The notes beneath the pieces were generated by a model that saw only the letters and a list, made by a program, of their open reading frames with translations, was not told the origin of the DNA and searched no databases. Shown piece after piece: positions 1,515 through 58,830 of a stretch of 64,000 bases of DNA (the first letter of the stretch is position 1; each line of letters starts with the position of its first letter). The position numbers were made by a program, and so were the translations under genes. The stretch comes from an uncultured Rhodospirillaceae bacterium (GTDB lineage Bacteria; Pseudomonadota; Alphaproteobacteria; Rhodospirillales; UBA2165): positions 1 to 64,000 of the forward strand of contig CAJWAR010000018.1 in assembly GCA_913020445.1 (NCBI GenBank), read 5' to 3'.

Positions 1515-1545
1515 AAAAAAAATCCCCGGCCAAATCTGGTCGGGG
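1515..1545 (-). terminator. Intrinsic terminator hairpin between the SAM-II aptamer and metZ
   Basis: Minus strand CCCCGACC-agattt-GGCCGGGG followed by A and T8 (one A/C mismatch in the stem). Confidence 0.65.
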
Positions 1546-1561
1546 CTTCTAACGCGCCGAC

Positions 1562-1616
1562 CTTTTAGCTCTGTTTATTTAGCGTGGCCGCAAGCCGGTC
1601 GTTCAAATCACCACGT
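1562..1616 (-). promoter_or_regulatory. SAM-II riboswitch aptamer upstream of metZ
   Basis: Minus strand CGTGGTGATTTGAACGACCGGCTTGCGGCCACGCTAAATAAACAGAGCTAAAAGG matches the SAM-II pattern (CGTGG..CCACG stem, GTGATTTG, CTTGC.GCCACG.TAAA, 3' GCTAAA). Confidence 0.85.
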
Positions 1617-1651
1617 GAGATGTAAAATACTCTGGTTTTACATCTCGTCAA
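1617..1651 (-). promoter_or_regulatory. Putative metZ promoter overlapped by a perfect 11-bp inverted repeat
   Basis: Minus strand TTGACG (1651-1646), 16-nt spacer, TATTTT (1629-1624); GAGATGTAAAA (1617-1627) / TTTTACATCTC (1636-1646) perfect arms. Confidence 0.55.
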
Positions 1652-1751: not shown

Positions 1752-3185
1752 ATGACAGATATAGCCACCACCGACGACATTTTCTTTAACCGCTCTGGGA
1801 TGGATCAAAAACGTGTCGAAGGCATTGTCGAAGACGCGCTGCATGGTGCTGATGACGGTGAACTATTCTTGGAATATAACCAAAGCGAAAGCTTTGTGTT
1901 TGATGACGGCCAGCTTAAAAACGCCAGCTTCGATACCATGCAGGGCTTTGGCCTCCGCGCCGTCGCCGGTGAAACTGCCGGCTATAGTCACGCATCGGAA
2001 CTGAGCGAAGAGGCCTTGAAGCGCGCCAACGCCACGGTCAAAGCGGTTCATGCCGGCCATGGCGGCACCATGGCAGCAGGCCCGTCGCCGACCAATCGCA
2101 GCCTCTATATCGATGACAATCCGCTTAACCTGGTGCCGTTCGAAACCAAAATAAAACTGCTATCGGATATTGATGCCTATGCGCGTGGCCTTGATGATCG
2201 CATCAAGCAGGTCTCCGCGTCTTTGTCCGGCGAATGGCAGGCCGTGCAAATACTGCGCGCCGATGGCAATCGGGCAGCCGATATTAGGCCCCTGGTGCGG
2301 CTCAATGTTTCGGTGGTTACCGGTGAAGGCGACCGCATGGAATCGGGCAATTATGGCACCGGTGGCCGCGAAACCTATGAAACCTATTTACAGGCCGAAA
2401 CCTGGCAGAGGGCGGTTGATGAAGCACTGCGCCAAGCCCTCGTAAATTTGGGCAGCGTGCCGGCACCCGCTGGTGAAATGCCGGTGGTCTTGGGCCCGGG
2501 CTGGCCGGCTATTTTGTTGCATGAAGCCATCGGGCACGGTCTCGAAGGCGATTTTAACCGCAAGAAAACCTCGGCCTTCGCCGAGTTGATGGGTAAGCGC
2601 GTCGCTGCTCCTGGCGTCACGGTCATTGACGACGGCACCATTGAAGACCGCCGGGGCTCGCTCACGATTGATGATGAAGGCACACCGGCTCAACGCACAG
2701 TTCTGATCGAAGACGGCATCCTGACGGGCTATATGCAGGACCGCATGAACGCGCATTTGATGGATGTTCCGTCTACCGGCAACGGGCGGCGTCAAAGCTA
2801 TGCTCATGCGCCAATGCCCCGGATGACCAACACGGTGATGGAAAATGGCGAACACAAGCCTGAGGAAATTATTAAATCGGTGAAAAAGGGGCTTTATGCC
2901 GTCAATTTTGGCGGTGGTCAGGTTGATATCACTTCCGGCAAATTTGTCTTCACCTGCACCGAGGCATATCAAATTGAAGACGGTAAACTCGGCGCAGCGG
3001 TGAAAGGCGCAACCCTGATCGGTAGCGGCCCGGAGGCGCTTAAAACAGTATCAATGATAGGCAATGATATGGCGCTTGATCCCGGCGTCGGCACCTGCGG
3101 CAAAGATGGCCAGGGTGTGCCGGTTGGTGTTGGTCAGCCGACCATGCTGCTGGATGAGCTCACGGTCGGCGGTACGGAAGTTTAA
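1752..3185 (+). CDS. tldD: Metalloprotease TldD
   Basis: 477 aa; TldD/PmbA family with HEAIGHGLEGD metal-binding motif and conserved C-terminal region. Confidence 0.93.
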   Translation: MTDIATTDDIFFNRSGMDQKRVEGIVEDALHGADDGELFLEYNQSESFVFDDGQLKNASFDTMQGFGLRAVAGETAGYSHASELSEEALKRANATVKAVHAGHGGTMAAGPSPTNRSLYIDDNPLNLVPFETKIKLLSDIDAYARGLDDRIKQVSASLSGEWQAVQILRADGNRAADIRPLVRLNVSVVTGEGDRMESGNYGTGGRETYETYLQAETWQRAVDEALRQALVNLGSVPAPAGEMPVVLGPGWPAILLHEAIGHGLEGDFNRKKTSAFAELMGKRVAAPGVTVIDDGTIEDRRGSLTIDDEGTPAQRTVLIEDGILTGYMQDRMNAHLMDVPSTGNGRRQSYAHAPMPRMTNTVMENGEHKPEEIIKSVKKGLYAVNFGGGQVDITSGKFVFTCTEAYQIEDGKLGAAVKGATLIGSGPEALKTVSMIGNDMALDPGVGTCGKDGQGVPVGVGQPTMLLDELTVGGTEV

Positions 3186-37243: not shown

Positions 37244-37274
37244 TAAAAAAAAGAGCCGGAATTAATCCGGCTCT
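37244..37274 (-). terminator. Intrinsic terminator downstream of the selenoprotein candidate
   Basis: Minus strand AGAGCCGGA-TTAAT-TCCGGCTCT followed by a T tract. Confidence 0.85.
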
Positions 37275-37301
37275 CTTTATATTGAAATTTTTCAAAGTTG
37301 A

Positions 37302-37946
37302 TTAAAGCGCCTTTACGTCATCAACAGTCTTTTGCGGCTCGGGACGAACCGTATGATTTGGATCGGTATCAGTCGCCCGAACAATGCCATCCGGCGTCAC
37401 GACCAGGCGTGTCGGCATCGGCAGCGTCCAGCTGTCTTCGCCGTTCGAGGCAGGTAAACTAATGCCAAAACCGTCATAGATATCTTTGATTTCCGGCGCA
37501 ACTGTGAAAACCAAACCCAGTTGAGCGGTGTAGGCATTGCCTTCATCACGCAACAGATCAAAGTTGAGTTTGTGCTTATCGACCAGTTCTTTATTTTTAT
37601 CCTGAATTTGCGGCGAGATCGCCACCATGGTCGTGTTCAATTCAGCTAAATCGTCAACAATGTCACGCAAAGCATACAGCTCTGCATTACAATAAGGTCA
37701 CCAATGGCCACGATAAATGGTGACAACCAGGTTTCCTTTGGCCAGCAGGTCAGCCGAACTGACTATTGTGCCGTCAGAGTTTGGCAAACTAAAAGATGGC
37801 AAGGTATCGCCAACTTTAATCACGCCGTCCATAATGCCTGAATCCCGAATGGCTTGCGTTGCCGCACCCATTTTCATCCGAATTTCTTCGGGTATACGTT
37901 CGGCACTGGCTTCACGGAGCTTGGCGAGGCTTTCTTCTAAGCTCAT
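37302..37946 (-). CDS. Peroxiredoxin-like/AhpC-TSA-fold selenoprotein candidate (UGA = Sec83, UPYC motif); 214 aa if read through
   Basis: ORFs 37698..37946 and 37302..37670 are in the same frame, separated by one TGA: ...NLVVTIYRGHW-[TGA]-PYCNAELYALRDIVDDLAEL...; family members have W-C-P-x-C here; SECIS-like hairpin follows. Confidence 0.8.
37665..37687 (-). promoter_or_regulatory. Putative bacterial SECIS element
   Basis: AUGCAGAGC-UGUAU-GCUUUGCGU: 9-bp stem (two G-U wobbles), 5-nt loop with G at position 2, loop starting 19 nt after the UGA. Confidence 0.65.
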
Positions 37947-38182
37947 ATAGCTCTCCCCTAAATTAGAAAGTTAAAAAGTATGAATTGAAAGTCATACAGG
38001 ATGCGTTCTTGGGAGACAATCAAGCTCTCTTCGATAACGTATTTTTGATAATGGTTTCCTATTGGTACGTGGTCGCCACTCACTTTCTGAATTCCCGTGA
38101 CAAAGCCGGTTTGATGATTAAAGTCCCCTCAATATAAATTTTGACAAGAAAATTGACGACTTAATTAAAAGGATCAGAGAAC

Positions 38183-58690: not shown

Positions 58691-58729
58691 AACACCACAC
58701 GTTTTGGGGTCATAATCTGGAAAATTAGG

Positions 58730-58830
58730 TGGGAGACCGAACACGCGACCCGAAACATAAACTCGTTACGGCTGCTTCCTTCCGGACCTGACCGGGTTGG
58801 CGAGCGGTTCGTCCGCGGCCGACCTCCCAG
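58730..58830 (-). ncRNA. ffs: Signal recognition particle RNA (small bacterial SRP / 4.5S)
   Basis: Minus strand contains the invariant GGTCAGGTCCGGAAGGAAGCAGCC domain IV core; flanks pair (TGGGAGG../..CTCCCA); sits next to dnaX. Confidence 0.93.

Follow-up and report, generated by a model that had tools for sequence, protein, structure and literature searches.

A hairpin located immediately downstream of an in-frame UGA, on the minus strand of the 64-kb stretch of DNA that was analysed (the window), is almost certainly a genuine bacterial SECIS, a new example of a kind of system that is already known. We hold with high confidence that this UGA is read as selenocysteine (Sec) in a Prx-like protein of family PF00578 with a UxxC motif. 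The features of the locus are as follows.

37951..37960, minus strand: ribosome-binding-site-like TAGGGGAGAG, preceding the ATG at 37946 (judged from the sequence)
37302..37946, minus strand: predicted Prx-like selenoprotein gene, 214 aa, U83 (RGHWUPYCNAELYAL), PF00578; stop codon TAA at 37304-37302
37698..37700, minus strand: in-frame UGA, predicted Sec residue 83; Cys in non-Sec homologs, TGA in 64/64 genes
37688-37697, minus strand: 10-nt spacer between UGA and stem
37665..37687, minus strand: putative bacterial SECIS hairpin, AUGCAGAGC-UGUAU-GCUUUGCGU, assigned by fold and conservation
37679-37687, minus strand: 5' arm, AUGCAGAGC
37674..37678, minus strand: apical loop UGUAU, with UG[U/G]A invariant among the UGA genes (64/64); presumed site of SelB contact, by analogy with E. 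coli (PMC8659212)
37665-37673, minus strand: 3' arm, GCUUUGCGU
37248..37278, minus strand: intrinsic terminator downstream of the gene, with a T run behind its 13 pairs

A preliminary description had reported a 9-bp stem with two wobbles and a UGUAU loop, with G as its second base, 19 nt from the UGA. Sequence and folding confirmed each of these details: the stem consists of 9 pairs, including one U-G and one G-U. Folding, which had been proposed as a check, predicted a stable hairpin. By itself it is the MFE structure (-11.6 kcal/mol, z -3.46; 0/200 shuffles), and it is still the MFE structure in a 48-nt context (z -3.27; shuffle z about -3.4 across 36-48 nt); in an 81-nt context it is the centroid, with a z of only -1.70. 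According to the main text of PMC13188914, the consensus bacterial SECIS has a loop of 3-9 nt, a stem of 4-16 bp, a distance of 16-37 nt from the UGA and an MFE <= -7.5, with a G as first or second base of the loop and, in most cases, a G or U after it. In agreement with the earlier claim, the hairpin fits this published consensus on every point (5 nt, 9 bp, UGUAU, 19 nt, -11.6 kcal/mol); the optional N1-N2 loop pair given in the same text is not evident here (U-U). The outermost A-U pair is variable, being a standard pair in 8/35 UGA forms, and the conserved element comprises about 8 bp or less.

How often such a hairpin arises by chance was estimated by a continuous-stem search with the published SECIS constraints at the 15,724 coding positions of the window. 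The consensus was passed at 4.0% of these positions (1.9% with a G[G/U] loop), and 0.85% matched the strength of this hairpin (0.39% with a G[G/U] loop). When the 15 residues after the UGA were recoded with synonymous codons, the fold was at least as good in 505/20,000 cases (p about 0.025). Fold strength by itself is unexceptional and only moderately rare. From these chance and recoding rates it follows that the single sequence is suggestive but not proof, and the case therefore rests on comparative data.

Homologs were searched for in 385 genomes of the class, in related orders, in a draw from the phylum and in a genome contig collection. This resulted in 64 distinct UGA genes, the window gene included, and 57 Cys forms; codon counts are based on the first 35 UGA genes. 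The position of the UGA is shared by all 64 genes, which are distributed over about ten alphaproteobacterial families, and the frame is open past the UGA. Comparison with homologs L046 and L047 gave a dN/dS of about 0.10-0.14 on either side of the UGA, with about 0.11-0.14 downstream of it; purifying selection is equal before and after it. An in-frame UGA may always act as a terminator, and 5/47 genes of the window do end in TGA. It has to be considered that the UGA is a true stop, whether through a nonsense mutation of recent date, through misassembly or because two separate genes are present. The retention of the UGA across families, the constraint on the residues after it and its strict co-occurrence with selB (see below) make this explanation very improbable.

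The sequence GAGCUG(U/G)A.GC is present at the hairpin in 64/64 UGA homologs. The core, defined as the 3 inner pairs plus the G[G/U] loop, is intact in 34/35 Sec forms, and in 63/64 of the enlarged set, but in 0/57 Cys homologs; the G[G/U] loop rule by itself holds for 35/35 UGA forms versus 7/57 Cys forms, and 89.6% versus 52.2% of the paired cells are paired. Hence, the loss of the hairpin from Cys homologs, which the preliminary description had put forward as a check, is borne out. The codons of the hairpin (GAG 35/35, CTG 35/35, GCT 34/35 and GCA 28/30) have the highest identities in the gene, compared with a mean codon identity of 0.42 for the remaining conserved columns of the 35 UGA genes. 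In a 7-codon window corrected for codon usage, codons +4..+10 score 0.74, compared with 0.066 elsewhere in the gene (sd 0.065, maximum 0.235). Synonymous constraint climbs at codon +4 and drops at codon +11, which are the start and the end of the hairpin, and codon choice is varied in the same region of the Cys forms.

The hairpin had been presented as evidence independent of the protein motif. This holds for the synonymous positions only, since the nucleotides that form the hairpin also code for the conserved residues AELYAL and the two lines of evidence overlap in part. Compensatory covariation, also proposed beforehand as a check, was not found: the number of pairs with two-sided changes is 0, and this test is therefore negative. 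These two observations, together with a resampling p of only 0.025, would be in line with a hairpin that results incidentally from the codon constraint on AELYAL and that has no function as RNA. Such a by-product would however not explain that the block of frozen synonymous sites coincides precisely with the hairpin and has no counterpart in the rest of the gene, nor that Cys homologs with similar residues vary their codons and never have the core, nor that a sister subgroup builds the stem again from other residues. We therefore give this explanation very little credence.

In the tree, the 35 UGA forms all group together in one clade (support 99/97), and the contrast in the hairpin between Sec and Cys forms is therefore a single evolutionary event. 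The synonymous constraint within the Sec clade is independent of that contrast. The sister subgroup provides structural evidence of another sort, a stem that is shifted in register and has a bulged U. In this subgroup, 29 of the 64 UGA genes, the N-A before E is swapped for R-H; GCA (or ACA) still pairs with UGC but one base more 5', leaving U18 bulged. The resulting stem, GCA(U)GAGC...GCUCUGC, is built from other codons and residues. The E. coli fdhF SECIS has a bulged U17 and loop bases G23 and U24 (PMC8659212), and it shares with the hairpins described here a position close to the UGA, a G-[U/G] loop and a nearly equal distance (G24 and U/G25 here). U18 of the sister subgroup is located 6 nt before the loop G, like U17 and G23 of fdhF (PMC8659212). 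Unlike fdhF, in which the bulged U is essential, the window subgroup has a continuous stem in which A18 pairs with U32, and a bulge of the fdhF type is absent from it. The lack of compensatory changes, the ordinary strength of the fold, the confinement of the UGA to one clade and the lack of a bulged U in the window subgroup count against the SECIS reading. The comparative set, which contains hairpins with and without the bulged U, is a tool for determining which features of a SECIS are read by SelB.

Position U+8 is Y in 29, D in 5 and E in 1 of the 35 UGA forms, and mostly Q, K or R in the Cys forms. Codons for Y, D and E give the loop its U or G; those for Q, K and R (CGN) do not. This pattern fits a selection of the residue at U+8 by the RNA, but it is confounded with clade history. 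A broader proposal, which we regard as possible but rather doubtful, is that this is an alphaproteobacterial SECIS lineage whose SelB has been freed from the need for a bulged U, that the bulge is retained in one subgroup and replaced by a continuous stem in the window subgroup, and that the RNA also dictates protein residues. If true, the lineage would constitute a natural experiment on the requirements of SelB.

The genome from which the window is derived (4.2 Mb, 117 contigs, 95% complete) contains the genes required for Sec insertion. On contig C22, selA (613 bits) overlaps selB (455 bits); a tRNA-Sec, anticodon TCA, is located about 20 kb from them, outside selB, whereas in other Alphaproteobacteria it is nested in selB as described in PMC8124441. 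The selD gene is itself a predicted selenoprotein gene: it contains a TGA in frame (HGGGUGCK) and, 17 nt downstream of this codon, a hairpin AGCACC-GUC-GGUGCU (L111:1486-1600, contig C21). None of the FdhA-like matches in this genome has a UGA; in a 2006 survey FdhA was the only selenoprotein listed for Alphaproteobacteria (PMC1794560). selB was found above cut-off in 15/15 genomes with a UGA form versus 3/26 genomes with only a non-UGA homolog (Fisher p 1.3e-8, a value that overstates independence because the genomes are related). An open frame after the UGA would also be expected if it were read as Trp or another residue, through a changed genetic code or leaky suppression and with no Sec involved. 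The normal use of TGA as stop in this genome, the alignment of the position with an invariant Cys and not with Trp, and the complete Sec machinery leave this the least probable of the explanations considered, with next to no weight.

In the Sec reading, SelB carrying Sec-tRNA(UCA) would bind the apical loop, the presumed contact, and the upper stem 19 nt past the UGA. With SelB bound at the hairpin, the ribosome would therefore insert Sec at position 83 and read on to the TAA at 37304-37302. The predicted product is a 214-residue protein with an AhpC/TSA fold and a UPYC redox centre. Standard gene calling breaks the gene into fragments of 82 aa and 122 aa; the annotation is corrected here to one gene of 214 aa.

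The protein matches PF00578 (AhpC/TSA domain) with 85.3 bits against a gathering score of 26; 22/22 aligned members also match the family, and the UGA aligns with the Cys of homologs in a UxxC motif. No NCBIfam model reached its cut-off for the window protein: the SelL-related redox protein model NF040769 scored 22.3 (cut-off 120 bits) and the thioredoxin-dependent thiol peroxidase Bcp/PrxQ model NF006960 scored 59.5 (cut-off 140 bits). In the AlphaFold model (pLDDT 95.6) U83 caps helix 84-94, the place of the nucleophile in Trx folds. The nearest solved folds are the Bcp/PrxQ and AhpE peroxiredoxins (Foldseek 5epf, E 2.8e-13). In the alignment with PrxQ, U83 falls on the Thr/Ser position and C86 on that of the peroxidatic Cys; from this we deduce that U-P-Y-C would be used in a thioredoxin-like way, and not as a classical Prx site. 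Sec would be the nucleophile and C86 the resolving thiol. The most likely activity of the protein is that of a thiol/selenol-disulfide oxidoreductase or of a thiol-dependent peroxidase in which Sec acts as the nucleophile. Cys-containing Prx-like homologs (WCPYC), PrxQ/Bcp and AhpE have the fold, C86 and the WxPYC context in common with it; compared with the Cys homologs, Sec would replace the first Cys.

Prx-like selenoproteins with UxxC that belong to PF00578 have been described before: 225 are given as 'Prx-like 1' in the Global Ocean Sampling set in the main text of PMC2398784, and Prx-like thiol:disulfide oxidoreductase selenoproteins also appear in the main texts of the reviews PMC9312934 and PMC13188914. 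As described in these texts, the Prx-like 1 selenoproteins share with the window protein the Pfam family, the UxxC motif and the status of predicted bacterial selenoprotein. The main texts of PMC2398784, PMC9312934 and PMC13188914 do not mention a WUPYC alphaproteobacterial clade by name. The present analysis documents a Sec-containing Prx-like clade over about ten alphaproteobacterial families.

RNA model R1 detected only this copy in its own genome (68.4 bits; the next match, at 15.3, is at chance level), and Rfam has no match at the hairpin locus. None of the remaining UGAs of the window has a convincing two-sided reading frame. A 16-base degenerate DNA pattern gave 83 matches in viral contigs, judged to be about the number expected by chance, and was rejected.

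Several other observations were made in the course of these searches. One contig, L017 (G298), carries a tandem pair of Prx-like selenoprotein genes (1501-2142 and about 2414-3055), each with UGA and hairpin. The Cys homolog L034 (G314) has an in-frame TAG at the Tyr preceding RGDWCPYC, and the L094 match also contains a TAG according to the homolog search. A contig titled as a Klebsiella pneumoniae MAG (L050, CAMAXW010000016.1) groups with the alphaproteobacterial UGA forms and is probably a mislabelled bin. Two genes downstream of selB, on contig C22 (L065:16723-17496), lies a gene for a thioredoxin-fold protein with CPMC that, by eye, is DUF899-like. Finally, the window contains a SAM-alpha riboswitch (1545-1624, minus strand) upstream of a minus-strand PLP-enzyme gene (281-1477), and a small SRP RNA (58729-58827, minus strand).
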